Source of the DNA: Colwellia sp.
GTDB lineage: Bacteria; Pseudomonadota; Gammaproteobacteria; Enterobacterales; Alteromonadaceae
Assembly: GCA_002733765.1 (NCBI GenBank)
Contig: NVWU01000006.1
Coordinates: forward strand, 98,658 to 162,657
Reading direction: 5' to 3'
DNA: 64,000 bases
Both the position numbers and the translations under genes were made by a program. Shown here one piece after another: positions 32,678-60,306 of this stretch. Position 1 is the stretch's first letter. Each line of letters starts with the position of its first letter. The notes under the pieces are model-generated. The model did not search any database and was not told the DNA's origin. It was given only the letters and a program-made list of their open reading frames with translations.

Positions 32678-32714
32678 ATATTGAGAACTCACATAAATGA
32701 AAAAGGTTATCCGC

Positions 32715-43232: not shown

Positions 43233-43601
43233 CTGTGCATACCACTCCCTTAGTAAAGTCAATATTACATAATATTGTTGAAAATAAATCATATCCCTAT
43301 TTAGGTAAATAAAGTCACTTTACCCGCATTTATTCTGATATATTTATTACTTATTTCAACATATCATATTTTAGCTCACTGTTTATATTATCGTGATAAA
43401 TTTAAAAAGAAAAATAGAAGGACAAACTTAACACTCATTTATGTAAGCTTACTCACTTTCTCATCACTTCATAACTATGTTAATGAGATTATAGAATAAA
43501 TTGGCACTTTGCAGTCTAGTGTTTTATTTTATAATAAAGCGATAAATAAAAGGTATCCTATAAAAATTATAGTATTAAGTGAAATAAATAGGGAATAATA
43601 A
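43233..43601. other. Divergent promoter region of two response regulators
   Basis: About 370 bp between the sigma54 activator gene and the REC/HD-like gene. TGGCACTTTGCAG at 43502-43514 looks like a sigma54 site, but GG and GC are too close together. No other structure or frame was seen. Confidence 0.45.
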
Positions 43602-44980: not shown

Positions 44981-46210
44981 ATGTTACCAATAAAAATTAT
45001 CAGTATGAATAAAATTTTTATTACTTTTATTACGTTATTTTGTTTATCTTTTCCTATCGCTGCAGAGCCGCTTTATAAAATTTATATTGACGCTGACTTT
45101 TCTAGTACTAAAGCGTCGAGTAACGCAATAAAACAAGGTATTGACGTTGCTTTGGCTGAAGAAAAATTTCAAATAGAAAGTTTTAATTTTGAATTAGTGA
45201 TTAAAAATCACCGTGGTAACTCTTTACGAAGCAAACGTAATTTAGAAACATTTCTTGCCGATCAACAAGGTTTAATTGTTTTTTCAGGTTTACACTCACC
45301 ACCATTACTGGCCAATAAAAATTTTATTAATAATAACAAAATATTAATGCTTGACCCTTGGGCTGCTGCTGGGCCGATAACCCGTAGTGACAGTCAAGAA
45401 AATTGGATATTCAGGCTATCCATTGATGACAGTAATGCTGGCACTTTCATTACCAAACAAGCGTTAAAAGAAGGATTTAAAAAGCCCTTGCTTTTATTAG
45501 AAGACACTGGTTGGGGACGCTCGAATAAGCGCACAATGACACAAGCATTACAGCAAAGTAATATAAAACCTAGTGATATTAAGTGGTTTAATTGGGGCTT
45601 AGGTATTAACCATGCAAAATTACTTTTACGAGAAGCAAAGCTAGCGGGTAGCGATGTGATATTTTTTGTTGGTAATGCTAACGAGGGTAAAGTTTTTTTT
45701 AAAGCCATGGCTGAATTAGAAAACGAGATACGACTTCCCATTAGAAGTCATTGGGGCATTACAGGAGGGAATTTTGCAGAAACAATTAATGCAGAGCAAA
45801 GAAAAGAATTGGATTTGCTGTTTATTCAAACACGATTTTCATTTTTAACACAGCCTCAAACAGCCTTAGCAAAAAATGTTTTCGAACAGGCATCTTCACG
45901 AAACCCAATGATCCAAAAAGTTTCTGATATAAAAGCCCAAACCGGCTTTATTCATGCGTATGATTTAACCAAAATATTAATTTCAGCAATAAAACAAGCT
46001 GGCTTAAGTGGCGATATAAATCGAGATAGACAGGCAATTAAAGTCGCATTAGAAAATTTAAAAAAACCGGTTGCAGGATTAATTAAAAATTATGAAAAAC
46101 CATTTTCTCGATACTCAAAAAGTAATGTAAATGCACATGAGGCACTATCTATTAACGATTATGTTATGGCATATTATGACGAAAACAATAACATCGTATT
46201 ATTAAAATAA
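44981..46210 (+). CDS. Periplasmic type-1 solute-binding protein (Peripla_BP_6-like)
   Basis: The 409-residue product has a signal peptide (NKIFITFITLFCLSFPIAA, cleaved near AEP). It then has the two-lobed fold of amino-acid/urea-type binding proteins: QGIDVALAEEKF, GLIVFSGLHSPPLLAN, FRLSIDDSNAGTFITKQAL, ITGGNFAETI and a C-terminal AYDLTKILISAI. No ABC transporter genes are nearby. It is 30 bp before a sensor kinase gene, so it probably works as the ligand sensor of that kinase, as LuxP does for LuxQ. AAGGA lies 11 bases before ATG 44981. Ligand unknown. Confidence 0.87.
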   Translation: MLPIKIISMNKIFITFITLFCLSFPIAAEPLYKIYIDADFSSTKASSNAIKQGIDVALAEEKFQIESFNFELVIKNHRGNSLRSKRNLETFLADQQGLIVFSGLHSPPLLANKNFINNNKILMLDPWAAAGPITRSDSQENWIFRLSIDDSNAGTFITKQALKEGFKKPLLLLEDTGWGRSNKRTMTQALQQSNIKPSDIKWFNWGLGINHAKLLLREAKLAGSDVIFFVGNANEGKVFFKAMAELENEIRLPIRSHWGITGGNFAETINAEQRKELDLLFIQTRFSFLTQPQTALAKNVFEQASSRNPMIQKVSDIKAQTGFIHAYDLTKILISAIKQAGLSGDINRDRQAIKVALENLKKPVAGLIKNYEKPFSRYSKSNVNAHEALSINDYVMAYYDENNNIVLLK

Positions 46211-46240: not shown

Positions 46241-48049
46241 ATGAAAAAAATTAGTATCTCATTCGCCCTTGCCCGTTTCGTTTTTTTTAGCGGTTTTGCG
46301 CTTGCTGTGTTTTCCACCATATTAGTAATTAACCATATGGTGGATACAGTCAATAAACAGCAAGCACAGCTTATTAAAAGACAAACTACTACTATTAATA
46401 ATAGTTATAATTTGTTTTTACAGCACCGATTAACATTATTAAGAGAGCAAGCGAACTTCCCTATAATAGTACAAACCGTCATGCAGCCAGATACCAACCT
46501 AGGTAGACTAAAAGATTTTATGGCTGATATTACTCTTCTGGGTGAACGATACCAACAAACACTTTTAGATTTTGAAGGAAACCCGCTTTATTCAAACATA
46601 AATAGTGTTATTCCTAAGTATAAAACTAAACCTTGGTTAAAAAAGTTGTTCTTACAGGAAGAAGGTGATTATTTAGGTATAGAGGAATTCAATGGGCAAA
46701 GTTTTTGGTGTATCGCCGTTGCTATTCGTTATAACAATGTTATTGAAGGGCTGTTAGTCACTTTAATCCCAATAGAAGCCATAAAAGAAGACAGTCAGAT
46801 AACGGAGCACGCTAACGGCTTAATGATTGATATACGTAATAAAGGTAAATTAATCACTCGTTTTGGTGAAGATGTGAGTGGTCAGAGCTATATAATTACT
46901 TGGCCAAAAATGTCAGTTACTTTTGAATTTACCTTTGACAATACGGTAATGAATCAAGAGCTTTATAACGCGGCTTTAAAGTTTAGCTCTTTAATAATAA
47001 TCGCACTTATTTTTATCAGTTTATTGGCCTATCGATATGGCTATCGATACTTTGTTCAACCACTATTACTGTTATCTGATGTTACAGGAGAACTTGATAA
47101 AGGAAGTGACTATACCAAGCTACAAGAAAATTTAAAAATTAGAGAGTTAGATGAATTATTTATCAAGTTTAATCAAATGGCCCAAAAAGTTCACCATAGA
47201 GAGTATGCGTTAAAGAAAAGCTATGATGAGCTATCTAAAGCGAATGAGGAATTAATACTGAGCGAATCTCAGTTAATACAATCTGAAAAAATGGCCAGTA
47301 TTGGTATATTGGCCGCTGGAGTAGCTCATGAAATAAATAACCCCATTGGTTACATTAAAAGTAACTTAGATATACTCCAAGATTACCTTAATAGCATTAA
47401 TGCTTACTGCCAAGAGATTGAAGAGCAATTTACTTCCCAAGTGCAAAAAGATTTACAGCAAATAATTGCAAAAAAACATGACCTTCAATATATTTTGGAC
47501 GATAGTAAGCCTCTTTTAGAAAACAGTATTGACGGTGTTAAAAAAGTAGCAGAAATAGTGCGTAATTTAAAAACTTTTGCCCGAGCAGAAGAAGAAGTTA
47601 AAACATTAACTGATATTAACGAAGGACTTACTGCCACCATAAATATGGTGTCAAATGAGCTTAAATATAATTGTCAATTGCATATTGATTTATCGCCATT
47701 ACCAAATATATTTGCATTTCCAGGTAAGTTGAATCAAGTGTTTATGAACTTATTAATTAATGCAGGGCAATCAATCGTTGATAAAGGTGATATTTTTATT
47801 CGTACTTATGAAGAAAATAACTATTTGGTTGTAGAAATTAAAGATACAGGCACGGGGATATCACCTGACATTTTACCGCAAATATTTACGCCTTTCTTTA
47901 CATCAAAGCCTGTTGGGCAAGGTACTGGATTAGGTTTATCGATTAGTCATAGTATTGTAGAGCAACATGATGGAAAAATACTCATTTCATCTAAGGTAGG
48001 CAAAGGGAGTTGCTTTTCAGTATACATTCCATTTACAGCACAGGCGTAA
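46241..48049 (+). CDS. Membrane sensor histidine kinase paired with a binding protein
   Basis: The 602-residue kinase has spans at ~10-32 and ~247-267 enclosing a ~215-residue periplasmic sensor of the dCache/Cache type. A HAMP-like linker (~270-320) and a coiled coil follow. The His box is EKMASIGILAAGVAHEINNPIG, with phospho-His near 362. HATPase_c motifs are NQVFMNLLINAGQSI, DTGTGISPDIL and TGLGLSISHSIVEQHDG. It has no receiver domain of its own. The two nearby response regulators share near-identical receivers and are the natural partners. The periplasmic binding protein gene directly upstream likely supplies the ligand signal. Confidence 0.92.
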   Translation: MKKISISFALARFVFFSGFALAVFSTILVINHMVDTVNKQQAQLIKRQTTTINNSYNLFLQHRLTLLREQANFPIIVQTVMQPDTNLGRLKDFMADITLLGERYQQTLLDFEGNPLYSNINSVIPKYKTKPWLKKLFLQEEGDYLGIEEFNGQSFWCIAVAIRYNNVIEGLLVTLIPIEAIKEDSQITEHANGLMIDIRNKGKLITRFGEDVSGQSYIITWPKMSVTFEFTFDNTVMNQELYNAALKFSSLIIIALIFISLLAYRYGYRYFVQPLLLLSDVTGELDKGSDYTKLQENLKIRELDELFIKFNQMAQKVHHREYALKKSYDELSKANEELILSESQLIQSEKMASIGILAAGVAHEINNPIGYIKSNLDILQDYLNSINAYCQEIEEQFTSQVQKDLQQIIAKKHDLQYILDDSKPLLENSIDGVKKVAEIVRNLKTFARAEEEVKTLTDINEGLTATINMVSNELKYNCQLHIDLSPLPNIFAFPGKLNQVFMNLLINAGQSIVDKGDIFIRTYEENNYLVVEIKDTGTGISPDILPQIFTPFFTSKPVGQGTGLGLSISHSIVEQHDGKILISSKVGKGSCFSVYIPFTAQA

Positions 48050-48140: not shown

Positions 48141-48707
48141 TTACTGACTTGGTTTAAAGTGATATATAACAGCCGCAGAGTCATCGATGAACCGAATAAC
48201 ATCGTTTTCAATGCCAACAACATTTAATTCTAATAATATATTATCAACCTTTTTAGGTATTTCTAAGATTAAATCTATTTGACCATCAATATCCGTTTTT
48301 GCCGTTGCTAATAATGATTTTTCTTGCAACCGAGGATCATCATACTCCTCTATTTCACTAAGAATTGAAGATATCGATAAAACCTTATTTGCCATAGGAT
48401 TACCTTCACTATCGCTCACATTGATATTAAAAATAATCTTTTGATAACTAGTAAAATTAAAACTTGATTCAACATACAAGTCAGCCGATGATTGTGCTAT
48501 TAGCGTCAGTTTTACCGTATCTGGCGTGTAATCTTTTTTTAGTTGCTCCAAATAAGCTATATCAGTATTTGTATTTACCGTTACAGGCGTTACAGGCGTT
48601 ACTTTACTACCCTCCTCGCCTCCACCACAACTTACCATCAATATCATAAAAACAATTATCGTTAATGGCTTTACTGCGTTTTTACGTCTCTTCAATATCC
48701 CGTTCAT
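48141..48707 (-). CDS. Small lipoprotein downstream of the LruC-domain gene
   Basis: The 188-residue product has a lipoprotein signal (PLTIIVFMILMVSC), lipidated at the Cys of MVSCGGG. A low-complexity VTPVTPVTV segment and a beta-rich domain resembling an Ig-like/Big fold (FNINVSDSEGNPMANKVLSIS, AKTDIDGQIDLILE) follow. GGAG precedes the ATG by seven bases. It begins 16 bp after the LruC gene, so the same sigma54 transcript should express both. It may anchor or assist the LruC protein at the cell surface. Function is not known. Confidence 0.75.
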   Translation of the reverse strand: MNGILKRRKNAVKPLTIIVFMILMVSCGGGEEGSKVTPVTPVTVNTNTDIAYLEQLKKDYTPDTVKLTLIAQSSADLYVESSFNFTSYQKIIFNINVSDSEGNPMANKVLSISSILSEIEEYDDPRLQEKSLLATAKTDIDGQIDLILEIPKKVDNILLELNVVGIENDVIRFIDDSAAVIYHFKPSQ

Positions 48708-48722
48708 AAGATTTCTCCGGCA

Positions 48723-50336
48723 TTAATAAATATGGTGAATACGCTCGTTAAAAACATGCCAATTTTGTTCTTCAACGCCAGCACTCTCAACCCACAATTC
48801 ATAGGTAGGATATGCCCAAACCACATCAATATATTCTTGAGGATAACGCCATTGTGTGTTGATTTGTAGTGCCCAAGGCAAATTTTGTTGATTTTTAAAA
48901 TAACGATTATTTTCTGGTTCTGAAGTGTCATCGAAACGGCCGAACCGTGTAGTATCAAATAAATCTGTTGGGGCATAGTTAGCAAAATGTATTTCTAAAC
49001 TTCTATCATTTGTTCTGAAGATAAAAAAGTCTAAACTGGAATGATTTAATGTCGAAAGTAAAACATTAAATCTTACATCCAGTAAAAAAGGAACAGGATC
49101 AAAACGAGTGCATTCAATTACCGTGTTGAAATGTGCACATTTACCACTCTCATTAGTTTGCGTATAGATATGGCTATCTTGCCAAAACACTAAAACGGCA
49201 TCGGTTTGATAATCTTCTGGTACCTTTTGAAATATTTGATTATTAATGGTTAACGATGCTTCCTCAATCAAATTTGGGTCTTGTCCCATAAGGCGTATAG
49301 CAAAGCCATTGTGATGCGCTGCACCGCGTGCATCAATGAAGCCGGAAATAGTAAACCCAGTGATATCACCATTTGCATTATAAATAGTTCTAAATTGTTC
49401 TCTTATCACTAAGTCATTGAGATCATAATCACCTACTTTGGGCCAATTATCTTCAAATGCCAGAGTAACAAAGTCATTGTTACTTGGATAATAGCTACTA
49501 AAGGCACGTTTATAATCATTTGGAAACTCATCTGATTCATCAAAAACACCGTCAGCATCGCTATCATTAACATTAGGAATAATAACTAAATCAGCCGTAT
49601 TTAATGCCGTTTCTGGTGTTGCTTTCACACTAAAAACTGCGTCATTAAAATCATTATCTCCCCAAGTACGAGGAAGGTCTTCAAAACCTAAAATCACCTC
49701 AGAAACTTCCTCATCATAGAGTAAAACTAGATGTTGACGTAATGCAGGATCAGTTTCAGGATTCAAGTTTTTTAATGAATAATAATAAGGTACCTTATAA
49801 TCTTTAACACCGGTGTAATAAGAAAAACCATTTGCCGCAATAAAAAAACCAATATGTGTACCCGCAGGAAAAATACCTAAACTTAAGCGGTGACCATTCG
49901 TTAAATGTGGATATGATAAGTTAGGAAAAACGATAATCTCACTAACATCAGATGAATTTTGTGGCGGGTTATTGGGATCAAAAGTGAAATAACCAAAAGA
50001 ATTTCGATAACCTGCCCCTTCATGGATAAAAGTAACAAATACCTCGGCACTTTCTGAAAGGCTAATAGTTGACCCTAGATCATCGGTCATAAATGCTTCA
50101 TTTATTTCACTTTCAGGCAATGCATTATTAATACGCGCAAAAAAATCATCACTATATTCATTATAGCGCCACACTAAATTATCTGGTTTACCTGTACTTT
50201 GTTGATATCCGATAGACCAAGATTCACCACTTAGAAAAGTCCAGACATACTTTCCATTATCAATATCAGTTGCACTGGTAGTACTCAAAAACCCAGTTAA
50301 AAAAATGGCTAAAGTGAAACAACGTAAGATAGACAT
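48723..50336 (-). CDS. Secreted LruC-domain protein (DUF4114 + DUF4842)
   Basis: The 537-residue protein has a signal peptide (CFTLAIFLTGFLSTTSATD). A DUF4114-like segment near 215-240 (VILGFEDLPRTWGDNDFNDAVFSV) is followed by an acidic repeat like calcium-binding thrombospondin type 3 (DSDADGVFDESDEFPND). The LruC/DUF4842 domain then runs to the end, starting FEDNWPKVGDYDLNDLVI. The two GDxDxND motifs suggest calcium sites. GAGGA lies six bases before the ATG. It is expressed from a sigma54 promoter whose upstream region is shared with the glycosyltransferase gene at 50.6 kb. It has no PEP-CTERM tail. A matrix or surface protein role is inferred. Confidence 0.85.
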   Translation of the reverse strand: MSILRCFTLAIFLTGFLSTTSATDIDNGKYVWTFLSGESWSIGYQQSTGKPDNLVWRYNEYSDDFFARINNALPESEINEAFMTDDLGSTISLSESAEVFVTFIHEGAGYRNSFGYFTFDPNNPPQNSSDVSEIIVFPNLSYPHLTNGHRLSLGIFPAGTHIGFFIAANGFSYYTGVKDYKVPYYYSLKNLNPETDPALRQHLVLLYDEEVSEVILGFEDLPRTWGDNDFNDAVFSVKATPETALNTADLVIIPNVNDSDADGVFDESDEFPNDYKRAFSSYYPSNNDFVTLAFEDNWPKVGDYDLNDLVIREQFRTIYNANGDITGFTISGFIDARGAAHHNGFAIRLMGQDPNLIEEASLTINNQIFQKVPEDYQTDAVLVFWQDSHIYTQTNESGKCAHFNTVIECTRFDPVPFLLDVRFNVLLSTLNHSSLDFFIFRTNDRSLEIHFANYAPTDLFDTTRFGRFDDTSEPENNRYFKNQQNLPWALQINTQWRYPQEYIDVVWAYPTYELWVESAGVEEQNWHVFNERIHHIY

Positions 50337-50393
50337 GTTAGTTCCTCAACACTTATGATTAGCTCTACAATTTATATAACTCATTAATTGTAG

Positions 50394-50409
50394 AGCTAAT
50401 AACATGCCA
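50394..50409 (-). promoter_or_regulatory. Sigma54 promoter of the LruC/lipoprotein operon
   Basis: Read on the minus strand, TGGCATGTTATTAGCT has GG and GC 10 bases apart, as RpoN requires. Transcription should start near 50383, giving a ~47-base leader. A perfect 14-bp inverted repeat (50359-50372 / 50386-50399) overlaps the -12 element and may be an operator or leader hairpin. Confidence 0.72.
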
Positions 50410-50463
50410 ATAATCTAATCACTTGTTTATTAAAGCATTAAAATAAAAAACATCTAATGGTCA

Positions 50464-50517
50464 TTAATAAATTGCATCTTGCAATGCAATTTATTAAGAC
50501 AGTTTTTAAATTTGCAA
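50464..50517. promoter_or_regulatory. Shared enhancer region between two divergent sigma54 promoters
   Basis: A perfect inverted repeat TTAATAAATTGCAT (50464-50477) / ATGCAATTTATTAA (50484-50497) encloses a further TTGCAA (50479-50484). Another TTGCAA is at 50512-50517. The block lies ~55-110 bp from the LruC promoter and ~71-124 bp from the glycosyltransferase promoter, the usual range for enhancer sites of NtrC-type activators. Confidence 0.68.
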
Positions 50518-50587
50518 AAAATGCCCTGTTTTTACGTTAAATCATAAGTAAATTAATGAAATTATTGATTAGTCTTGTATTAAATAA

Positions 50588-50603
50588 TGGAGTACATCTT
50601 GCT
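50588..50603 (+). promoter_or_regulatory. Sigma54 promoter of the 50.6-kb glycosyltransferase unit
   Basis: TGGAGTACATCTTGCT keeps GG at -24 and TTGC at -12 with correct spacing. Transcription should start near 50614, 26 bases before the ATG at 50640. TTGCAA boxes are 71-109 bp upstream. Confidence 0.68.
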
Positions 50604-50639
50604 TAACATGCAGTACCGATCAAAAAACGGTGAATAAAT

Positions 50640-51380
50640 ATGGCGAACAAAACCTTAATCTTCAGCATTGCCTTAAACGGCTATCAATGGATATATAAAA
50701 AAGAACTCGATTCACATAAAAACTATGCCAATAAAAATGGTTATGATTATCAAGCAATCACTCGCCCCTACTTTTCGTCATTGGGTGTAGAGTGTTGTTG
50801 GTTGAAATTAACACTTATGCGTACGGCATTATTAGCGGGTTATCAGCATGTGGTGTTTATAGATGCCGATGCAATGGTTAAACATAACTGCCCAGCTATT
50901 GAAACGCTTTTTATCGACAACAAGTATATTTATATGGCAAAAGGATATTCAAACCGATTTAACTCCGGTGTGCTCATTGTGCGAAATAAAACAGAAGTTA
51001 TTGACTGGTTAACCCGTGTTATTGACAGCAGAATATTAACTGTTGCGAACAAAAATAGTGTGGGCTGGGGGGAGAACGGCCATATTATTGAATTAAGCCA
51101 AAACTGTCCATTTATTCAAGAAATAGATCAGAGATGGAATAACACTTATGATAATAATATGGCGGACTTCATTCACCACAAAAATTGTGGCCCATTGAGA
51201 ACAAACTTAATTGACAATTTTCTTCATAAATTAATTTTTTGTCTTTCCTATCGAATATTAACATTAACAAAGAGTTTTAAATTATTAAATAAAAAGAACA
51301 TTTTTGATAATAAACTCGATAATGAAACAGACAAAATAATCACTATCTACCCCCACTTCACCTCAAATAAATATGATTAA
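50640..51380 (+). CDS. Glycosyltransferase with GT-A fold (GT34/GMA12-like)
   Basis: The product has 246 residues. KTLIFSIALNGYQWIYKKELDSHKNYANKNGYDYQ opens the nucleotide-sugar fold. VECCWLKLTLMRTALLAGYQHVVFIDADAMVKH contains the DxD metal site near 82-84, and RFNSGVLIVRN follows. This pattern is that of galactosyl/mannosyl transferases of the GMA12/MNN10 type. It is probably a sugar transferase for the exopolysaccharide. It is followed by a small membrane protein gene by 38 bp and expressed from a sigma54 promoter. Confidence 0.78.
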   Translation: MANKTLIFSIALNGYQWIYKKELDSHKNYANKNGYDYQAITRPYFSSLGVECCWLKLTLMRTALLAGYQHVVFIDADAMVKHNCPAIETLFIDNKYIYMAKGYSNRFNSGVLIVRNKTEVIDWLTRVIDSRILTVANKNSVGWGENGHIIELSQNCPFIQEIDQRWNNTYDNNMADFIHHKNCGPLRTNLIDNFLHKLIFCLSYRILTLTKSFKLLNKKNIFDNKLDNETDKIITIYPHFTSNKYD

Positions 51381-51418
51381 AACTTATTAGATAATTTAAT
51401 TTATTTTTTGGAAAAAAC

Positions 51419-51856
51419 ATGAGACAACTTAATACATCAAAAAATCGTAAAAGAGCCTCCCTAAAAGAAAGTGAAGTTTTTAATAACTTACTTAAAAGCA
51501 TGGATAACACTGTTGTTAAAAGCTTTACTCCTCAACAATTAAAGGCAATTAGAGGCGCGATAAATATAAGAGAATGGCGAACACATAGCGTAGATTTTAG
51601 ACCAACCTTAGCATTACCCTTTATACCCTGGAATTTTTATGTTGTATTTCTCTTCGGTGTAAATCAAAGAGCTTTATCAACGACCGAAAAGTGCATAGCC
51701 GCAGCAATGTTTTTATTGATTATATTTATTACGGGTATGACTCTATTTGGATTGGTTTTTCTTACTTTATACCTATTCAAATCATGGTTAGGAATAGATA
51801 TTTTTCCTGAGAATTCATTAGGTTTATGGGACGAATTCAAACGTTTTTTTGATTGA
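51419..51856 (+). CDS. Small membrane protein of exopolysaccharide loci, unknown function
   Basis: The 145-residue product has a cytoplasmic N-terminal part (ESEVFNNLLKSMDNTVVKSFTPQQLKAIRGAI), then the motif WRTHSVDFRPTLALPFIPWNFYVVFLFG. Two hydrophobic spans near ~60-80 and ~92-123 follow. Proteins with the same R.HxVDxRxxLPLPxxxFYxV pattern occur near polysaccharide genes in cyanobacteria and marine bacteria, often with a misleading enzyme name. I cannot assign a function. It is cotranscribed with the upstream glycosyltransferase gene. Confidence 0.7.
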   Translation: MRQLNTSKNRKRASLKESEVFNNLLKSMDNTVVKSFTPQQLKAIRGAINIREWRTHSVDFRPTLALPFIPWNFYVVFLFGVNQRALSTTEKCIAAAMFLLIIFITGMTLFGLVFLTLYLFKSWLGIDIFPENSLGLWDEFKRFFD

Positions 51857-51893
51857 TTATTAATGATTAACTAATTTTTATGTTGATTGAAAA

Positions 51894-51934
51894 TTTAGTT
51901 GCAAAATAGAAAAGTTTTTTATTATGCAACTAAA
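51894..51934. promoter_or_regulatory. Probable enhancer of the WecG/sugar-transferase unit
   Basis: TTTAGTTGCA (51894-51903) and TGCAACTAAA (51925-51934) are exact inverted copies 21 bases apart. They contain the TTGCAA/TGCAA boxes seen before the other sigma54 promoters and lie 83-123 bp before the promoter at 52017. Confidence 0.62.
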
Positions 51935-52016
51935 AGCTACTCTAAAATAAATAGACACTCTTTAACAATAAAAATAAAAAATATATTTATCAATGAATTA
52001 AAATATAAATTCATAT

Positions 52017-52032
52017 TGGCATAGCTTAAGCA
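52017..52032 (+). promoter_or_regulatory. Sigma54 promoter of the WecG/sugar-transferase unit
   Basis: TGGCATAGCTTAAGCA keeps TGGCA at -24 and GC at -12 with correct 10-base spacing. Transcription should start near 52044, 28 bases before ATG 52072. Confidence 0.68.
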
Positions 52033-52071
52033 GTAACTAGATATCTTTGAATAGATATTAAGCTAACAAAT

Positions 52072-53418
52072 ATGAAAAATCTACTTACAGACTTATCACA
52101 ACTTACAACACACAGTAAAGATTGTACTAAACATGTATTTGATAAAATATTGTCAACGCTTATGGTAATTACACTAAGCCCTGTGATGATGATTAATATC
52201 TTATGCTCATTGATAACTCGTCAGCCCATTTATACTTATGTGGTTAAAAAAGATGCGTTAGGGCATTCAGTCATTACAAACCACTTTACTTGTGGCATTT
52301 TAAAAAGTAGTGCACTGCTGATCAATATCTTTATGGGGCAACTAAGTTTTTGTGGTGTGCCATCTACACACCGTTTAGCACCACAAGTACAAGCTAGAAT
52401 TAAGCTCCGTTATAGCTGTAAGCCAGGCATATTTAGTTTGTTTGATTTACATCGTCGCACCGGACTTGTTATTCAAGATCCAGAAACCTTATTATTAAAA
52501 CAGCTTAACTCGAGCTCATTTGATAATGCTTTACTATTACTTAAAAATTTAGTCTGCTATTGCCTGTATACGACTCCCAGTAAAGGGCTTATTGATACAA
52601 AAAAAATCTCTCTTTTTGGACTAAATCTAGAGAACTTATCAATGCAAGAAGCCGTCAATTGGGTTACAACGACTCCTAAGAAAACATCAACAAAGTCGAG
52701 CACTAAGATTTCCATAAAGAATACTGTCATCAACAAATCAACTTCAGACAATATAAATACTGTGACAAATATAGGTTTTTTTATTAACGTCAACTCAATT
52801 AATCTTTGCCTAAAACAACCTGACTTTCATCACACATTACAACAAGCAGATAAACTTCTAGCGGATGGTTCAGGTATGAGGCTCGCGGCTAAATCCGCGG
52901 GCTATTTACTTAAAGACAATACTAATGGTACCGATATGTTACCTCATTTATGTCTTAGCTGTATTGAACAATCTAAATCAATCTATTTTCTTGGTTCAAA
53001 ACTGGGAGTTGCAGCCAAAGCGGCATCAAATTTAAAAAAACAGTTCCCTGGCCTGCTTATTGCTGGCACAGAACATGGTTTTATTGGGTCAAGTCAACTT
53101 AACAAACAAATAGAAAAAATAAATAAAAGCGGTTGCGATATTTTATTAGTCGCCATGGGATCCCCCTTTCAAGAAAAGTGGTTACTTGAACACAAAGAGC
53201 AATTGCAATGTCAAACTGCCTTGGCTGTCGGAGGTCTATTTGATTTCTACTCTGGTGAAATAGCACGTGCACCACTGTGGTTACGAGAATTAGGATTAGA
53301 ATGGGGGTGGCGCTTATGGCAAGAACCTATGGTTAAATTTAAACGCTATGTCATCGGAACACCACTATTCTTATTTCGTATATATGTACTTGGCTTAGCC
53401 CGTAAAGGAGATAAATAA
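52072..53418 (+). CDS. WecG/TagA/CpsF glycosyltransferase with decayed sugar-transferase N-terminal domain
   Basis: The 448-residue product is a fusion. Residues ~20-130 resemble an initiating (WbaP/ExoY-type) sugar transferase: FDKILSTLMVITLSPVMMIN, then QLSFCGVPSTHRLAPQVQAR and YSCKPGIFSLFDL, which echo its SLVGPRP and KPGxTG regions. The catalytic residues have changed, so it is probably inactive. After a Lys/Thr/Ser-rich linker (~200-222), residues ~175-440 form a WecG-type domain with LADGSGMRLAAKSAGY, NGTDMLP, GSPFQEKWL and VGGLFDFYSGEIARAPLWL. It should add the second sugar to undecaprenyl-PP-sugar. Its stop overlaps the next start by one base. Confidence 0.88.
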   Translation: MKNLLTDLSQLTTHSKDCTKHVFDKILSTLMVITLSPVMMINILCSLITRQPIYTYVVKKDALGHSVITNHFTCGILKSSALLINIFMGQLSFCGVPSTHRLAPQVQARIKLRYSCKPGIFSLFDLHRRTGLVIQDPETLLLKQLNSSSFDNALLLLKNLVCYCLYTTPSKGLIDTKKISLFGLNLENLSMQEAVNWVTTTPKKTSTKSSTKISIKNTVINKSTSDNINTVTNIGFFINVNSINLCLKQPDFHHTLQQADKLLADGSGMRLAAKSAGYLLKDNTNGTDMLPHLCLSCIEQSKSIYFLGSKLGVAAKAASNLKKQFPGLLIAGTEHGFIGSSQLNKQIEKINKSGCDILLVAMGSPFQEKWLLEHKEQLQCQTALAVGGLFDFYSGEIARAPLWLRELGLEWGWRLWQEPMVKFKRYVIGTPLFLFRIYVLGLARKGDK

Positions 53419-54095
53419 TGATTATTCAAACAATTAATAATATCATTCATCCACTGAGTATTACGCAACCAATAGGCCATAAACATAAATTTGGGCACCG
53501 TGGTATTCCTCTACTCTTACAACAAATAGTGTCAGTATTAGTCTTGATAACAATCAGCCCTTTACTAATATTAGTTATGTTATTCATTACTATAGAAAGC
53601 CCAGGCAGGATATTATTTTCTCAAGTTAGAGTAGGTGAAAATGGCAGACACTTTAAAATGTATAAATTTCGTTCAATGTATTTAAAATCTGATCCTCATT
53701 TTCAAGAGCCAGATCCAAGTAAATCGTCACGAGAAGGTGTTTGTAAAAAATACATTAATGATCCAAGAATCACTAAGATAGGTAAATTTATTAGAAAGTA
53801 TTCTATCGATGAATTGCCTCAGCTATTTAATGTTGTCACTGGTGATATGTGTTTAGTCGGCCCTCGCCCTGCATTAGCAATTGAAACATATGAATATGAA
53901 CATGCAGACCAAGCTCGATTATTTTCAAAACCTGGTTTAACTGGTCTGTGGCAAATATCTGGTCGAGCCGATACAAGTTTTTCTGAACAACTACAATTAG
54001 ACAAAGATTACATTAAGCAACAAAGTATTTGGACTGATTGTAAAATTATTCTACTTACTGTTCCTGCCGTATTAAGTGCAAAAGGCGCTTATTAA
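53418..54095 (+). CDS. Undecaprenyl-phosphate sugar phosphotransferase (initiating, ExoY/WcaJ-like)
   Basis: The 225-residue enzyme has a membrane segment at ~30-56 and the bacterial sugar transferase domain: RILFSQVRVGENGRHFKMYKFRSM, DPRITKIGKFIRKYSIDELPQLFNV with the catalytic DE, and GDMCLVGPRPALAIE, KPGLTGLWQISGR and LDKDYIKQQSIW. It transfers a sugar-1-phosphate to undecaprenyl phosphate to start the repeat unit. ATG overlaps the WecG stop (TAATG). A terminator follows at 54129. Confidence 0.94.
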   Translation: MIIQTINNIIHPLSITQPIGHKHKFGHRGIPLLLQQIVSVLVLITISPLLILVMLFITIESPGRILFSQVRVGENGRHFKMYKFRSMYLKSDPHFQEPDPSKSSREGVCKKYINDPRITKIGKFIRKYSIDELPQLFNVVTGDMCLVGPRPALAIETYEYEHADQARLFSKPGLTGLWQISGRADTSFSEQLQLDKDYIKQQSIWTDCKIILLTVPAVLSAKGAY

Positions 54096-54128
54096 TTAAA
54101 TAGTCATTTATATCAATAAAAAACTATT

Positions 54129-54157
54129 AAAATCCACTATCCCTTAGTGGATTTTTT
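54129..54157 (+). terminator. Rho-independent terminator
   Basis: AAAATCCACTA (54129-54139) pairs with TAGTGGATTTT (54145-54155), followed by T to 54157. It ends the two-gene unit before the next sigma54 promoter. Confidence 0.92.
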
Positions 54158-54214
54158 ACTATCAATTCGCTAAACAGTGTTAGATAAACTCTTAGTATTT
54201 AGCATTTATCTATT

Positions 54215-54247
54215 TTGCAATGTCATTTTTCACGTTGCAAATTGCAA
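54215..54247. promoter_or_regulatory. Three TTGCAA boxes: probable enhancer of the export operon
   Basis: TTGCAA stands at 54215-54220, 54235-54240 and 54242-54247, that is 75-107 bp before the sigma54 promoter at 54322. The first two are 20 bp apart, about two helix turns. Confidence 0.65.
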
Positions 54248-54321
54248 AAAAAACAATAAAACCACGACTAAACAATACAGTAAGCCGTTATAAAATAACA
54301 AGTTTAAATTAAATTATTTAT

Positions 54322-54337
54322 TGGTACATTTTCTGCA
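54322..54337 (+). promoter_or_regulatory. Sigma54 promoter of the export/polymerase operon
   Basis: TGGTACATTTTCTGCA matches the RpoN consensus with GG and GC 10 bases apart. The start of transcription is expected near 54348, downstream of a TTG at 54344. This supports ATG 54374 as the true start of the export gene. Confidence 0.76.
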
Positions 54338-54373
54338 CTTCTATTGTTTATGGAAACGATGATGGAGCAAAAA

Positions 54374-55654
54374 ATGACAACATATAAATTGATCCCTCAC
54401 AATATGAGAGTCTTTCTACTGTCATTAACCTGCTTGATACTAAGTTCAGGTTGTGCCCAACATTATGCTTTACAAAATGAACTAAAAGATGAAGCTCGGT
54501 TTTATGGTATGCCCGGCAATAAAGGGGACAATTTTATTCATGAACAAGCGCCAAAAAATGTTTTTACACAAGGGATAAACTGTATTGATTTTAATAACAT
54601 GGCTGCCGCATTAAATTATCGCATCGATAAACCGCTAAACCTACCTATGGCCAATAAAGTCAACAATAGCACTATCGATTCAATGTTAACGCAAGGGCTA
54701 TTATTAAGTCCTGGTGACTTACTCGAAATGCAGCTAGAAAATGGTGAAGGTTTTAATGGTCATTATATTATCGACAACGGTGGCTTAGTTAAAATACCAT
54801 TAATTGGCCAAATTGAAGCCGCTGGCACGACGACTAATGCCTTAGAAATAAAAATTGAATTGGCGCTAGTTCGTGCAGAAATATTTCAGCCTGCCAGTGC
54901 AACTGTCACCATACAAGTATTAGATTGGTCTTCAATTAAAGTAGGGGTTTCCGGTGCAGTATTTGAACCGGGTACTGTGTTAATTAATAAAAAATTACCG
55001 AATATGATAACTGATGAACGCATTAATGCTTTTGGCGACTATTCAACAACACGTCTATTATCAGAAGCAATTAGAGCCGCTTCAGGTATCCGTCCTGACG
55101 CTAAATTAGATCAAATAATTTTATTACGTAAAGGTTGGCAAATTCAGGTTGATTTAACCGGCATGTTAACCGGTGACCCCGTTAAAGATTACCCTTTAGT
55201 GGCCGGTGATAGAGTTATTGTACCCAGTACAGGTTGTTTTCAAGCACACTTGGTTAGACCGAGTCGTATAACACCGAAAGGTTTTCGTGTTTTTATGTCA
55301 AATCTTATCGACTCGTCTGGTGACAACAGCAGTGCCGCAGTAGGTCGTTATTCCACTAACCTTCCTTATGGCACTCGACTTTTACAAGGTGCAATATCAG
55401 CAAACTGTGTTGGTGGAAAAGACTGGACTAATGCATCTCGTCGAGTTGTTCTTGCCAGTAAAAACCCTATTACAGGTGAAACTCAAGTGATAGAGCGGTC
55501 AATAGAAGAGTTAATCACTATGCCAAATAAAAATGACCGTAATCCTTATCTTATGCCAAACGATGGTATTGCCTGTTACGACTCAACCATTACCAATTTT
55601 CGCGATATTGCTAGGACCTTGGTAGATATTATTATTCCGCTAAAATTATTGTAG
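54374..55654 (+). CDS. Outer-membrane polysaccharide export lipoprotein (Wza-like)
   Basis: The 426-residue product starts at ATG 54374 with GGAG six bases upstream. A lipoprotein signal (VFLLSLTCLILSSGC) is followed by the Poly_export/SLBB domain: LLLSPGDLLEMQLENGEGFNG, GGLVKIPLIGQIEAAGTTT, IKVGVSGAVFEPGT and AGDRVIVPST. It forms the outer-membrane channel for polysaccharide. It is the first gene of an operon with chain-length, polymerase, pyruvyl transferase and glycosyltransferase genes, under a sigma54 promoter. Confidence 0.92.
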   Translation: MTTYKLIPHNMRVFLLSLTCLILSSGCAQHYALQNELKDEARFYGMPGNKGDNFIHEQAPKNVFTQGINCIDFNNMAAALNYRIDKPLNLPMANKVNNSTIDSMLTQGLLLSPGDLLEMQLENGEGFNGHYIIDNGGLVKIPLIGQIEAAGTTTNALEIKIELALVRAEIFQPASATVTIQVLDWSSIKVGVSGAVFEPGTVLINKKLPNMITDERINAFGDYSTTRLLSEAIRAASGIRPDAKLDQIILLRKGWQIQVDLTGMLTGDPVKDYPLVAGDRVIVPSTGCFQAHLVRPSRITPKGFRVFMSNLIDSSGDNSSAAVGRYSTNLPYGTRLLQGAISANCVGGKDWTNASRRVVLASKNPITGETQVIERSIEELITMPNKNDRNPYLMPNDGIACYDSTITNFRDIARTLVDIIIPLKLL

Positions 55655-55661
55655 GTGAGCT

Positions 55662-57053
55662 ATGAAGTACCCTATAAAAACGCTGACAAAATATGAGCTT
55701 TTTCGCTCTACTGTTTATCTACGGCTAAAACGTCCGTATTTAGTCACAGGTATTATGGCGTATTCAATTGTGACCCTGATGATATTACTTTATTTAGCAA
55801 AGGAACCTCAGTTTACCAGTCAAATGGAGTTGGTTTTACCCGGTACAGGCAGTAGTAGCAGTGTAACACTGGACAACATAGGGCAAATAGTATCACAAAC
55901 TAATGCACCCTTTTCTGGTGCTGGTTTTAACCCCCGAGTAAACTACAAAGAAATGTTATCAAGTAGAGGCGTACGTCAACGCGCGGCAAAAACCTTACAC
56001 ATGACATTAAAAGTTTTTGGTGAAGCTAAAGTTAAACTGACAGAGCAAACATCAATTATTACTTTATCAATTAGTCATAACTCGCCCGTACTTGCTGAAG
56101 CAAAAGCTTTAGCGCTATATCAGTCCTTACAAAAAGAGCTCGATATTTTACGGGCAGATGAAGTAGCACGCCGAGATCAAAGTATTAAGCATGTACTTGA
56201 TCAATACCGTGTGAAAATGAATATAACACGTAATGCTATCGTTGATTTTCAACAACGCTCTATGTTGGTATCAGTCGACCAGATGGAACAGCTCATTAAA
56301 ACACTGTCAGGCGTTAAAGAGCGTCAAATGTATATTCACGCTGAGTCACAAAAATTAAAACAATATATCACTCATTTAAGTCATGAATTAGGTGTATCAC
56401 CAAAACTTGCTGGACAAGCATTTGCTCTGCAATCTGATGTGGAGTTTCGAGCGTATATAAGTGAATTACAATTGAGTATTACTCTATTGTCTGAAAACAG
56501 CTCTCGCTGGGGAGTGAATCACCCAAAAGTTATCGCTCAACAGAAGCGGTTAGACTTCACTCGCACCGCAATAAATAATCGCAGTACTGAAGTATTCGGT
56601 ATTGAAGCGAACCAAATATTTAATACCTTAAATATGGATTTAACTCCAAAACGCTCACAACTATTTGCTGATTTAATTGAAGCTTATGCCTCTCAAAAAG
56701 GGCAAGAATCAATGTTGCTAGACCTTCATCGTTCTGAAAATCATTTAAGTGATCAACTTAAAATATATTCTCGAGAAGTGGTTGAGTTAGAAAGATTACA
56801 GCGAGAATTTAATATGGCTGAAGCAATTTTTACCTCCGCTGCAGCAAGGCTGGAAGCGGGCAAAGCCGACATCTTCGCCTCTTATCCAGTATTACAAATG
56901 TTAACGACACCTTCTTATCCAGATAAACAGAGTAGTCCTAAAAATTTACTCGCAGCAATTGCAGCTGTGTCTGGTTTTATATTTATTACTTTTGGACTTT
57001 TTATTCTATGCCAACGCAAACACATAATCCAAGTTCTTTTGAAGAAAAATTAA
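55662..57053 (+). CDS. Chain-length determinant / co-polymerase (Wzz/GumC-like)
   Basis: The 463-residue inner-membrane protein has spans near ~28-46 and ~427-448 and a large periplasmic part. This is mostly helical coiled coil between ~120 and 400 (QEKELDILRADE-like and FQQRSMLVSVDQMEQLIKTL). The Wzz domain lies at the N terminus (FTSQMELVLPG). It lacks a cytoplasmic kinase part, so control of its partner kinase is not visible here. It sets polysaccharide length and links to the Wza channel. It is 7 bp after the Wza-like gene. Confidence 0.88.
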   Translation: MKYPIKTLTKYELFRSTVYLRLKRPYLVTGIMAYSIVTLMILLYLAKEPQFTSQMELVLPGTGSSSSVTLDNIGQIVSQTNAPFSGAGFNPRVNYKEMLSSRGVRQRAAKTLHMTLKVFGEAKVKLTEQTSIITLSISHNSPVLAEAKALALYQSLQKELDILRADEVARRDQSIKHVLDQYRVKMNITRNAIVDFQQRSMLVSVDQMEQLIKTLSGVKERQMYIHAESQKLKQYITHLSHELGVSPKLAGQAFALQSDVEFRAYISELQLSITLLSENSSRWGVNHPKVIAQQKRLDFTRTAINNRSTEVFGIEANQIFNTLNMDLTPKRSQLFADLIEAYASQKGQESMLLDLHRSENHLSDQLKIYSREVVELERLQREFNMAEAIFTSAAARLEAGKADIFASYPVLQMLTTPSYPDKQSSPKNLLAAIAAVSGFIFITFGLFILCQRKHIIQVLLKKN

Positions 57054-58276
57054 TCTGGTACGGTTTGATCTTAACTTATCCATTATTTGCTATTGGTGGA
57101 TTATACGTGACGGGATCATTACTAGGTTGGTTAATTTTCTTTACCGCCATGTTGCGCTGGTACGTCAACGGCAAAGAACCATTAACAGTCATTCCCACCC
57201 TTGTGTGGCTATGGATAGCAGGAGGCATAATCATGCTAATTGCCTTGTTAATTGCTCATTCAAATTGGGAGTTAGGCTTAATAAAAACCATAAAGTCATC
57301 GATAGGTTGGGCTAAAGGATGGGCTTTAATGCCGCTATTTTTATTATTGGGTGCCGTGGTTAACGTAAAGCCTGCATTAATTATTAGAGCCGTTTGTGTG
57401 GTTTCTTTTCATTCACTAATATTTGCTGTTTTAACTTTTTTCTTCTATGTCATGGGGTTAGAAGGTGATCTGTTTATTTCTCCACTGCAAGTTGTAGGAG
57501 GCCCCGGCCCTGATTTTTTTGCCGTAAGCCTTTATGGTTTTAACCCTGAATTGAATATAGGTCGCTGGCGTTTTTTTGCACCCTGGGCACCTGCAGCAGG
57601 GTTTATGTCATGTCTATTTTTAATATTTTGTTTACAAGAAAAAGATAAATTTTGGCGTAACTGGGGAGTAACAGGAAGTTTGGTCATGTGTTTATTAGCG
57701 CAATCTCGTGCTGGCTGGGTAATATTTGTCATGCTAATTCCGTTAATGTTATTTTCAGGGAAATTTAAAAAACCCCTGTGGTTAGTTGGTTTCGGCGTTT
57801 TAATGCCAATAATCCTCATTATAGGTGAACCTATATTTGACTGGGTTAACAGTTATTATCTTGATATTAAAGCTTCTCGCCCTAATTCCACCCGGGTGCG
57901 TTCAATATTAGAGGAACTTGCTCTACAACGTTGGGAGTCAGAAGCACCTATTTGGGGACATGGCATTGTTGAGCAAGGACCAAAAATTGTCGAAGGTATG
58001 CCAATAGGATCTCACCATAGTTGGTACGGCTTACTCTTTGTCAAAGGCTTAGTCGGTTTATTTGCATTGGCTATACCATTGTTTTTTACCAGCATTTATT
58101 TATTTTGGCAAAGCCAAGAAAGCCAAATAGCCCGCTCGGCTTTGTGCATGATTATCGTCTTTATTTGCTACTCTTTTTTCGAAAACCTCGAAATACTTGC
58201 CTATATATATTGGCCCGCCATTTTATGGATAGGCATTGCTCTAAATCCTCTAAAATCAGGAGATAAAAATGTTTAA
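57008..58276 (+). CDS. O-antigen ligase/polymerase-like membrane protein (Wzy/WaaL type)
   Basis: The 422-residue protein has about 11-12 hydrophobic spans. A long periplasmic loop near 280-330 contains the Wzy_C-type pattern (ARPNSTRVRSILEELALQRW, GHGIVEQGP, SHHSWYGLLFVKGLVG). Wzy enzymes polymerise repeat units in the periplasm. It begins 46 bp inside the end of the Wzz gene and overlaps the next gene by 8 bp, so the operon is tightly packed. Polymerase is more likely than ligase because the locus otherwise lacks one. Confidence 0.88.
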   Translation: MPTQTHNPSSFEEKLIWYGLILTYPLFAIGGLYVTGSLLGWLIFFTAMLRWYVNGKEPLTVIPTLVWLWIAGGIIMLIALLIAHSNWELGLIKTIKSSIGWAKGWALMPLFLLLGAVVNVKPALIIRAVCVVSFHSLIFAVLTFFFYVMGLEGDLFISPLQVVGGPGPDFFAVSLYGFNPELNIGRWRFFAPWAPAAGFMSCLFLIFCLQEKDKFWRNWGVTGSLVMCLLAQSRAGWVIFVMLIPLMLFSGKFKKPLWLVGFGVLMPIILIIGEPIFDWVNSYYLDIKASRPNSTRVRSILEELALQRWESEAPIWGHGIVEQGPKIVEGMPIGSHHSWYGLLFVKGLVGLFALAIPLFFTSIYLFWQSQESQIARSALCMIIVFICYSFFENLEILAYIYWPAILWIGIALNPLKSGDKNV

Positions 58277-59420
58277 AAAAATTGATGCATATCTTGTTGG
58301 ATATTATGGCATGCGTAATAGTGGTGATGATGCGCTAATGTATGCCACCGCATGGGGAGCCAAAATTTTACTTAAATACAAAACCATTACTTTAGGTTTG
58401 TATGGTGACCATGCTCGAGATATCCCTGCTGATAACCAGTTAGATTTACATTTCAACCAAAAATTTCTTGGTCAAAATAGATTAGCGCATTATAAAGCCG
58501 CTTTACAAAGCAAATGTATCATCTTTGGTGGCGGTGCTGTTTTACATAGCAAAAGAGATCTTAACTTGAAACGCCAATTAATCGCTCTTGCGGGTACTAA
58601 AAATAGTATTGCTGTAGGAGTTAGTATTGGCCCATTTCAGTCAATTGCTGCAGAAAAGTCATGTGCTAAATTTTTAAATGAATGCAGTTATGTTGGCGTT
58701 AGAGATAAACAAAGTTTAATAATAGCACAGAGCATTTCTCCCAATGCAACAGTAGAAAAAACGTTTGATTTAGCACCTTTATTATTATGTTCAAAAAAAT
58801 ATAAACCCGTAGTAAGTCAGCGTAGGGGAATTGCTTTATCCTTATGCTCTGTTGCTATTGATCCTATGGGTAAAACACACAAGCAATCGGAAAAAAAACG
58901 TATCAAAGAGGTTTGCCAATTGATTACCTCAATCTACAATAATACCGGCGAAATGATAACGCTATTAACATTTAATGGTCATCCTACGCTAGGGGATTGG
59001 CTGATAAACAATCAAATACTGGCGCGTTTACATTCAACAGTTTCTTTAACAATTAAGCCTTATAATCCTAATCCCTTTGCAGTTCTTCAAGATCTATCTA
59101 ACTACAAAGCACTGATCAGCATGCGCTTACATGGCTCAATTTTAGGCTACTTAGCAAATACCCCAGTATTATCTTTAAATTATCATGAAAAATGTATTGG
59201 TTGGTGCCAACAAATAGGTTTATCAACAGGCTATCAGCTAAATTTAGCAGAACAAAATATAACAGAAATTTTAACCCCACTTGAACAAGGTTTAGCGTAC
59301 GGTTTTTTAAAGCCTACGTTACCAGTATCAAATGCATTACAAATGGCTTTATCAAATTGGAGTATTAATCATGAACAAACCAAATTTTACAGTCGTTATA
59401 CCGCTTTACAACAAAGCTAG
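58269..59420 (+). CDS. Polysaccharide pyruvyl transferase (CsaB/WcaK-like)
   Basis: The 383-residue enzyme has GYYGMRNSGDDALMYA at the start, IIFGGGAVLHSK near 95, GVSIGPFQSI, and the later conserved ALISMRLHGSILGYLANTPVLSLNYHEKC. This family adds pyruvyl ketals to sugar residues using phosphoenolpyruvate, which gives the polymer negative charge. It overlaps the polymerase gene by 8 bp and the following glycosyltransferase gene by 50 bp. Confidence 0.9.
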   Translation: MFKKIDAYLVGYYGMRNSGDDALMYATAWGAKILLKYKTITLGLYGDHARDIPADNQLDLHFNQKFLGQNRLAHYKAALQSKCIIFGGGAVLHSKRDLNLKRQLIALAGTKNSIAVGVSIGPFQSIAAEKSCAKFLNECSYVGVRDKQSLIIAQSISPNATVEKTFDLAPLLLCSKKYKPVVSQRRGIALSLCSVAIDPMGKTHKQSEKKRIKEVCQLITSIYNNTGEMITLLTFNGHPTLGDWLINNQILARLHSTVSLTIKPYNPNPFAVLQDLSNYKALISMRLHGSILGYLANTPVLSLNYHEKCIGWCQQIGLSTGYQLNLAEQNITEILTPLEQGLAYGFLKPTLPVSNALQMALSNWSINHEQTKFYSRYTALQQS

Positions 59421-60306
59421 TCATATACTACGTACATTAAGCAGTATTACATGGCAAAAATATCCCGCAATAGAAATTATTGTTGTTGATGATGGTTCAA
59501 CAGATAATAGTGCATTGTTAGTAGAAAAATCAGGCATTTCAAGTTTGCGGTTAATTAAGCAGAAAAATCAAGGGGTCTCAGCAGCAAGAAACAGAGGCAT
59601 CGCAGAAGCTCGTTATGAGTACATTGCCTTTTTAGACGCTGATGATGAATGGCTCCCTTTATATTTGGATGAAATAGCCGGATTGATTAATAAATTTCCT
59701 GAAGCGAGTTTTTATGGCACAAGTTATCAAATAGTTGAAGCGGGCAACAAATATGTTGATGCTAAAATTTATAAGCCAACAGATAATCCAAAAGGCATAT
59801 TACTTGATGACTATTTTGATATTGCTTCTCGGGGTGATTTACCGTTTACAATGTCCTCTATTTCAATAAAACGGTGTTTATTTACTATAATAGGCGGTTT
59901 TCCTGAAGGTGAGCCTATCGGTGAAGATCAGGATTTATTTTGTCGGGCAGCTTTGGCTACTCGCATGGCGTATTCAATTAATATTCACTCGCTATATCAT
60001 AAAGATGCAAAAAACCAGGCCAGCAAAGAAAATGTTCCTGAAGTTGAATGCGCTTTTAGTGTCCGAGTGACCGCTAGTGCCATCAAAAATGAAGTGAACA
60101 ACAAGGCAAGAACAAATATGTTACGTTATAGTGCAGCACATTTGTGCCATATAGCTAAGCTCAATATTATATCCAACCGCTTTACTCAAGCGAGAAAATT
60201 ATTAGCTGACCCACGTTGTAAACTAAAGCCTAAACACTTACTCAGTTTATATATTTTATCTTGGATTAAACAGATGCAGAAATGGAGCACTACTTATATA
60301 AATTGA
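59371..60306 (+). CDS. Family 2 glycosyltransferase
   Basis: The product has 311 residues from ATG 59371, chosen because GGAG stands eight bases upstream and FTVVIPLYNKASHILRTLSSI follows directly. An earlier in-frame start at 59332 lacks such a site. GT2 motifs are EIIVVDDGSTDNSALL, QKNQGVSAARNRGIAEA and FLDADDEWLPLYLDEI with the DxD site. Then come GGFPEGEPIGEDQDLFCRAAL. It ends the export operon and is followed by a strong terminator. Confidence 0.92.
   Translation: MNKPNFTVVIPLYNKASHILRTLSSITWQKYPAIEIIVVDDGSTDNSALLVEKSGISSLRLIKQKNQGVSAARNRGIAEARYEYIAFLDADDEWLPLYLDEIAGLINKFPEASFYGTSYQIVEAGNKYVDAKIYKPTDNPKGILLDDYFDIASRGDLPFTMSSISIKRCLFTIIGGFPEGEPIGEDQDLFCRAALATRMAYSINIHSLYHKDAKNQASKENVPEVECAFSVRVTASAIKNEVNNKARTNMLRYSAAHLCHIAKLNIISNRFTQARKLLADPRCKLKPKHLLSLYILSWIKQMQKWSTTYIN

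Follow-up and report, generated by a model that had tools for sequence, protein, structure and literature searches.

LuxO, the sigma54 activator of the qrr genes of the Vibrionaceae, has the site TTGCA-N3-TGCAA, cited from Lenz 2004 in the part of PMC3352281 available to us and given as TTGCAWWWTGCAA in the available part of PMC10162802. The latter also describes SypG of Vibrio fischeri, a LuxO-like sigma54 activator of several promoters of the syp exopolysaccharide locus, whose site overlaps that of LuxO at qrr1. A further sigma54 response regulator linked to exopolysaccharide genes belongs to the PrsK/PrsR-PEP-CTERM system, in which a two-part motif stands before secreted-protein genes (PMC1569441, in part). 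The accessible portion of PMC8919034 deals with cellulose and flagella, not with an LruC-exopolysaccharide locus, and in the accessible portions of the literature on LruC proteins and on LuxO and sigma54 in Alteromonas and Pseudoalteromonas we found no description of a regulon of the kind considered here. That regulon was predicted in a 64,000-nucleotide stretch of Colwellia sp. DNA (assembly GCA_002733765.1, contig NVWU01000006.1, positions 98,658 to 162,657; hereafter the window), in which genes for exopolysaccharide assembly lie beside a gene for a secreted LruC-domain protein and that of a response regulator at 41778-43292 (the 41778 protein).

Our principal conclusion, to which we would give a probability of roughly 85 %, is that this activator, a sister of LuxO, reads a LuxO-type operator to run a sigma54 regulon of exopolysaccharide and LruC genes across marine gammaproteobacteria. 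An earlier note on this DNA had proposed a sigma54 regulon that controls matrix genes together through a defined enhancer, and the proposal is supported by conservation, by the presence of rpoN in the genome (506 bits against a cut-off of 277), by the LuxO-type recognition helix of the regulator and by the co-occurrence of regulator and promoters in the genus.

The four GG-N10-GC elements claimed in that note are all present, and we read them as sigma54 promoters: TGGCATGTTATTAGCT at 50394-50409 (minus strand) for the LruC unit; TGGAGTACATCTTGCT at 50588-50603 (plus) for the unit headed by a gene for a 246-amino-acid (aa) protein, the weakest of the four (3.74); TGGCATAGCTTAAGCA at 52017-52032 (plus) for the WecG unit; and TGGTACATTTTCTGCA at 54322-54337 (plus) for the Wza unit. 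Sites were scored by simple consensus weights, under which the window holds 34 sites of at least 3.7 on its two strands, four of them these promoters and three others intergenic. The units and the genes around them are as follows.

41778-43292, minus strand: sigma54 activator with receiver, AAA+ and Fis-type helix-turn-helix domains, sister of LuxO
43602-44879, plus strand: response regulator with HD domain, possibly a second output of the same signal
44981-46210, plus strand: periplasmic binding protein, possibly the signal receptor
46241-48049, plus strand: sensor histidine kinase, candidate kinase of the activator (presumed pairing)
48141-48707, minus strand: second gene of the LruC unit, for a putative lipoprotein whose cysteine box lies close to the N-terminus; no Pfam match above cut-off
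48723-50336, minus strand: secreted LruC-domain protein (DUF4114 and DUF4842; TIGR04456, 242.6 bits)
50640-51380, plus strand: 246-aa putative transferase, conserved in the cluster; no family above cut-off
51419-51856, plus strand: 145-aa membrane-type protein; no family
52072-53418, plus strand: WecG/TagA-family glycosyltransferase of 448 aa (family match)
53418-54095, plus strand: initiating sugar-phosphate transferase (family match)
54129-54155, minus strand in the scan output: hairpin resembling a terminator, located between the WecG unit and the Wza unit, by consensus only (2 found in the scan, 1.8 expected)
54344-60306, plus strand: operon of Wza, a Wzz-like protein, Wzy, a pyruvyl transferase and a GT2 glycosyltransferase (matches to Poly_export, pyruvyl transferase and GT2)

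The gene content read into these units earlier holds for LruC, WecG, the initiating transferase, Wza, the pyruvyl transferase and GT2, but the 246-aa ‘glycosyltransferase’ reaches no Pfam cut-off, Wzy_C is matched just below its cut-off (29.2 against 31.7 bits), and the Wzz homologue has sub-cut-off NCBIfam matches only.

The three intergenic regions that hold these promoters, 766 bp in all, contain the hexamer TTGCAA six times, whereas other intergenic DNA (7,847 bp) contains it four times and coding DNA ten times (Fisher p = 7.5e-5); when the three regions are shuffled, the mean count is 0.9 (p = 0.0005). The hexamer is thus not as frequent at random AT-rich intergenic sites, the observation that the earlier note had named as one that would tell against its proposal. 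The box is half of a palindrome, TTGCA-N3-TGCRA (TTGCA-N3-TGCAA in the window), which is found as TTGCATCTTGCAA at 50472-50484, common to the divergent LruC and 246-aa promoters, and as TTGCAAATTGCAA at 54235-54247, before the Wza unit. An extra TTGCAA half-site lies beside the first palindrome (50512-50517), and another upstream of the second (54215-54220), where it is kept in aligned relatives. The enhancer of TTGCAA or TGCAA boxes claimed for every promoter therefore survives as an enriched and defined motif, but one refined to a LuxO-type palindrome that is complete at the LruC/246-aa and Wza promoters and degenerate, as spaced half-sites only, at that of WecG.

The same operator emerged from an unsupervised expectation-maximisation search of sequences upstream of LruC genes in relatives, the window being excluded. 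The input came from 40 of 43 loci (L034, L042 and L043 were dropped beforehand), of which seven were removed as near-duplicates to leave 33 non-redundant sequences. The motif returned, GCATTGCAATTTGCAA, contains TTGCA-N3-TGCAA and has a log-likelihood ratio of 219.7, against 61.5, 66.6 and 65.7 in three shuffled sets. On the unseen window, the three top-scoring positions of its matrix are 54232, 50472 and 32575, each with a sigma54 site downstream. The last belongs to a fifth operator and promoter pair, TCGCATTTTGCAA at 32575-32587 with TGGCATGGTCTCTGCA at 32662-32677 (plus strand). This pair rivals the others in quality and precedes a 76-aa open reading frame (ORF; 32697-32927) for which no clear homologue was found among the fetched loci; it may mark an active unit with a small client or a relic promoter. 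A looser pattern, TTGCA-N51..109-TGGNA-N8-GCW, was discarded as too loose, having 40 + 40 matches in the genome against 20 + 18 for a reversed control.

Operator and promoter were then taken together as a composite, defined as a matrix match of at least 12 bits followed, 30-135 bp downstream, by a sigma54 site scoring at least 3.9. In 53 sequences (1.01 Mb) there are 103 composites, against 11, 7, 1, 7, 7 and 6 in six shuffles. They precede LruC (30), WecG (20), Wza (19), the 246-aa gene (10, in as many of the 43 loci, with the layout seen in the window), pyruvyl transferase (9), Wzy (2), the initiating transferase (1) and a response regulator (1, labelled EBP by its receiver), with 11 unassigned. 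Because the matrix was trained on LruC matches in L001-L041, and the LruC operator also serves the 246-aa gene, the composites before these two genes depend on the training; the 20 WecG, 19 Wza (one of them the window's own), nine pyruvyl transferase (that of L006 weak, at 3.9 and 12.1), two Wzy and single initiating transferase composites lie outside it. At least one composite stands at a homologue of a window gene in 40 of the 43 loci, and at least two in 28; in 34 loci, LruC is preceded by a sigma54 site that matches 9 or more of 12 positions. Composites track operon heads across rearranged loci: in the rearranged cluster of Pseudoalteromonas, the pyruvyl transferase gene heads its own unit and the promoter stands before it. 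These counts bear on whether ordinary sigma70 promoters might run the units, the GG-N10-GC elements being chance occurrences in AT-rich DNA. The region does contain 21 sigma70-like consensus sites, but 19.8 are expected by chance, whereas the sigma54/operator composites are some ten or more times as frequent as in shuffles and precede the same genes across genera; we regard the sigma70 explanation as very improbable.

With the matrix fixed and ten shuffles made per set, held-out sequences behaved similarly. Twelve same-genus stretches, from genomes whose regulator is 70-85 % identical, gave 16 matches against 0-1 in the shuffles: four before Wza, four before Wzy, four before LruC, two before WecG, one before the 246-aa gene and one before a STAS-like/lipoprotein pair. 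The LruC matches (L088, L090, L092 and L094, from four genomes) precede a different LruC protein of about 700 aa, encoded about 100 kb from the regulator or on another contig. Eight stretches from genomes with a regulator relative of about 40 % identity (the 40 % class) gave 15 matches, six of them before LruC, against 0-2 in shuffles. An exact operator-plus-promoter pattern occurred 16 times in eight genomes of the genus with an orthologue of the regulator, 35 times in 15 with a 40 % relative and seven times in 16 with neither, the reversed pattern giving 2, 3 and 5; these counts include overlapping matches (two pairs in G023), and ‘neither’ includes G035, whose cluster reaches a contig end where the regulator may lie (L129). 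Both regulator classes differ from the genomes with neither (Mann-Whitney p = 2.4e-5), as do the orthologue holders minus the window's own genome (p = 0.0016).

All 12 occurrences of TYGCANNNTGCRA in the 4.05-Mb genome of the window were examined, and a good intergenic sigma54 site accompanies four, three in the window and one at C34:79774. The site at C26:267189 is weak (8 of 12 positions), those at C33:15357 are weak and fall within an ORF, and the other six occurrences lack such a site. The earlier list of four target units was thus right as far as it went but incomplete, with one more site in the window and one elsewhere. The C34 unit (L044, 2775-5484) has three genes, the first encoding a receiver protein that matches GGDEF in degenerate form, the other two having no Pfam family; the same three genes and promoter layout recur in G037 (L131) at 64-67 % identity. 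The C26 promoter and the first codons after it (L051, about 2800-3020) align with a glycosyltransferase-like gene of G024 (L130, 2080-2300), and an AraC-type gene follows this promoter in the window's genome; the C26 promoter looks like a relic of a lost exopolysaccharide unit. In relatives, candidate clients include a STAS-like gene (L138), a choice-of-anchor A protein (L137) and a PEP-CTERM-like protein (L136, under cut-off). In L132, L133 and L134, operator and sigma54 site precede a 598-aa gene that we take to be glmS-like from its N-terminus; it may be a copy devoted to supplying amino sugars. The regulator of G034 is 85 % identical, and in that genome the flippase and receiver-HD genes (L083, 9241-12009) look like short remnants of 128 and 142 aa, and an LruC-type gene of about 704 aa lies nearby without a composite match.

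The distance from palindrome centre to the GG of the promoter is 70 bp for LruC, 82 for Wza, 82 for the promoter at 32662 and 124 for the C34 unit. Over 50 values, one per gene and genus and partly dependent through shared descent, distances cluster near 60, 71, 82, 93, 104, 115 and 126 bp. The best period within the 10-11 bp scanned is 11.0 bp (Rayleigh nR2 22.7), a value reached by none of 10,000 uniform and none of 10,000 jittered sets. These 50 values omit sites below 13 bits, targets left unassigned and loci lacking a genus label; a stricter version of the test omitted 11 near-duplicate loci and sites below 15 bits.

The sigma54-activating regulator that the earlier note had placed 7 kb away was found to have the receiver, sigma54-type AAA+ and Fis-type domains expected of one; its best sequence match in the PDB is 5ep0. 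Its recognition helix, VSPSTLYRK, is shared by all orthologues with a readable C-terminus (ISPSTLYRK in L071), and the 40 % class and 12 LuxO proteins above cut-off have VSPST[IL]YRK. The helix is not exclusive, close versions occurring in LuxO-like proteins of other families and in L081, outside the clade. The linker FEGFIG resembles the YQGFIG of LuxO and is not found in all orthologues. Orthologues of at least 51 % identity are present in 28 of the 31 LruC genomes searched (L038, L042 and L043 being without), and in many relatives the regulator gene sits within the cluster. In a FastTree phylogeny of 65 proteins, from which L076, L078, L095 and L103 had been left out (fragments, a wrong match, a duplicate), the 34 orthologues and five proteins of the 40 % class form a clade (0.989) that is sister to LuxO, LuxO-like and two SypG-like proteins (0.997), and the 41778 protein thus falls outside the LuxO clade; support for the orthologue group itself is 0.74, and the sixth 40 % protein, L096, falls with LuxO-like proteins. 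One might suppose, from the identity of operator and helix, that this is the Vibrio LuxO-Qrr quorum system in another host and that some of the promoters make small regulatory RNAs. The tree argues otherwise, as does the score against LuxO (NF041946), which is the top NCBIfam model but is matched at 473 bits against a cut-off of 800; moreover, protein genes follow most of the promoters, and an Rfam search of the window, L044 and L051, run without a Qrr positive control, gave no match. We consider this explanation extremely improbable.

Several observations count against our principal conclusion. In place of a full palindrome, the WecG promoter has half-sites at 51899 and 51924, and the best matrix score before WecG is 7.8, against 18.4 and 18.7 at the others; in relatives, the counterpart of these spaced inverted half-sites (51899-51929, TTGCAA ... 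ATGCAA) in the alignment is TTGCAAAATGATAA...ATTTTGCAA. Taken by itself, the operator matrix shows no enrichment in the window (14 matches of at least 11 bits against 10.9 in shuffles), and its shuffle maxima average 16.1 and reach 20.5, so that we rely on the composite and its conservation. No composite was found at any homologue of a window gene in L009, L034 and L042 (3 of 43 loci), and none at all in the stretches L083, L085 and L086 from orthologue-bearing genomes; in 9 of the 43 loci the region upstream of LruC lacks a sigma54 site that matches 9 or more of 12 positions. The loop that contacts sigma54 reads GAFSGA in the 41778 protein and in all readable orthologues except L080 (L053-L075, L083-L093 and L126), not GAFTGA as in LuxO and the 40 % class. 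Finally, L038 and L043 have the composite promoter although no regulator orthologue was found there, so that the link is not strict. This last point would suit an explanation in which sigma54 does act at these promoters but a different activator of the genome recognises the palindromes, the 41778 regulator controlling something else, and the genome does encode 14 AAA+ activator homologues. The LuxO recognition helix, however, is absent from the other 13, the 41778 gene lies within the cluster in many relatives, and promoter counts follow the presence of a 41778-type regulator in the genus. We think this alternative unlikely and continue to favour the 41778 protein as the activator.

From the computed promoters, operator, conservation, co-occurrence and recognition helix we infer how the system may work, binding, phosphorylation, the signal and the matrix role of LruC all being predictions. 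When phosphorylated, probably by the nearby kinase, the response regulator would bind TTGCA-N3-TGCRA palindromes and act at a distance of about 60-125 bp upstream, favouring one face of the DNA helix and driving sigma54 RNA polymerase at the -24/-12 promoters. The exopolysaccharide assembly genes, the putative transferase and the secreted LruC protein would in this way be co-expressed as one surface-matrix programme.

The nearest matches of the LruC protein are in metagenome-assembled genomes of Colwellia (75 %) and Thalassotalea (76 %, partial). The predicted structure has a mean predicted local distance difference test score of 71.4 and a predicted template-modelling (TM) score of 0.48, and its best PDB match is 3oqq, a putative Bacteroides lipoprotein, with TM scores of 0.30/0.38, from which no function follows. 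Among 39 genomes of the genus searched, that of the window alone has this 537-aa type at high identity; matches in 20 others are partial and do not exceed 41 %, a distribution that suggests that the matrix protein has been exchanged. A perfect 14-bp inverted repeat at 50359-50399 overlaps the -12 element of the LruC promoter. The idea that it gave rise to, leader hairpins as a regulon-wide feature, was rejected: leader segments starting 8 bases past the promoter have a mean z of 0.01 (113 promoters), no better than 200 control starts, and segments starting at the -12 element a mean of -0.42 (n = 116) against -0.24 in 130 upstream control segments. Strong repeats stand behind a few promoters, including that of LruC in the window and some promoters in relatives.

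The system shares with LuxO the operator TTGCA-N3-TGCAA (as given in the available parts of PMC3352281 and PMC10162802), the helix VSPST[IL]YRK and the receiver-AAA+-Fis layout; it differs in the low score against the LuxO model, in its position as a sister clade, in its matrix-gene targets and in the GAFSGA loop. From this comparison we lean slightly towards a broader interpretation, in which a LuxO-sister clade, not described in the literature that we consulted, is the master sigma54 switch of the LruC-exopolysaccharide matrix of marine gammaproteobacteria, reading its operator from helically phased positions and having gained further clients in relatives (unlinked LruC, glmS-like, STAS-like, PEP-CTERM-like and choice-of-anchor genes). 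On this interpretation the LuxO operator code would predate Vibrio quorum sensing and extend beyond it, and its first role may have been matrix control, as with SypG. LuxO is reframed to the extent that the same operator and helix appear to serve a matrix regulon outside the Vibrionaceae, a point relevant to how the link between quorum sensing and biofilm control arose. For matrix production by marine bacteria, the analysis also yields a precise, testable cis-code together with a candidate regulator, and the code is specific enough to nominate clients in unannotated genomes, including LruC proteins of unknown function.

SypG and PrsR offer the closest functional parallels. With the syp system, as described in the available part of PMC10162802, the locus has in common several sigma54 promoters, here with operators before exopolysaccharide genes, and a LuxO-like activator that is predicted to act on them. 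The SypG motif published there, TTCTCANNNTGMDWN, is unlike the one found here, and the two SypG-like proteins in our tree (labelled by score and family only, confirmed SypG being absent from it) group with LuxO and not with the 41778 protein. No STAS (SypA-like) gene is annotated among the window units, which have LruC instead; a STAS-like gene with this type of promoter is present in the relative G034. With PrsR, as far as the accessible part of PMC1569441 describes it, the likeness lies in a sigma54 response regulator tied to exopolysaccharide genes and in a two-part motif before genes for secreted proteins. The 41778 protein differs in matching the PrsR model at 361.4 bits against a cut-off of 502.6 and in its LuxO-type operator, and LruC matches none of the PEP-CTERM models, TIGR04456 being its sole NCBIfam match. 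Judged by these likenesses, SypG is the nearest functional analogue of the predicted regulator, and PrsR the nearest where secreted matrix proteins are concerned.

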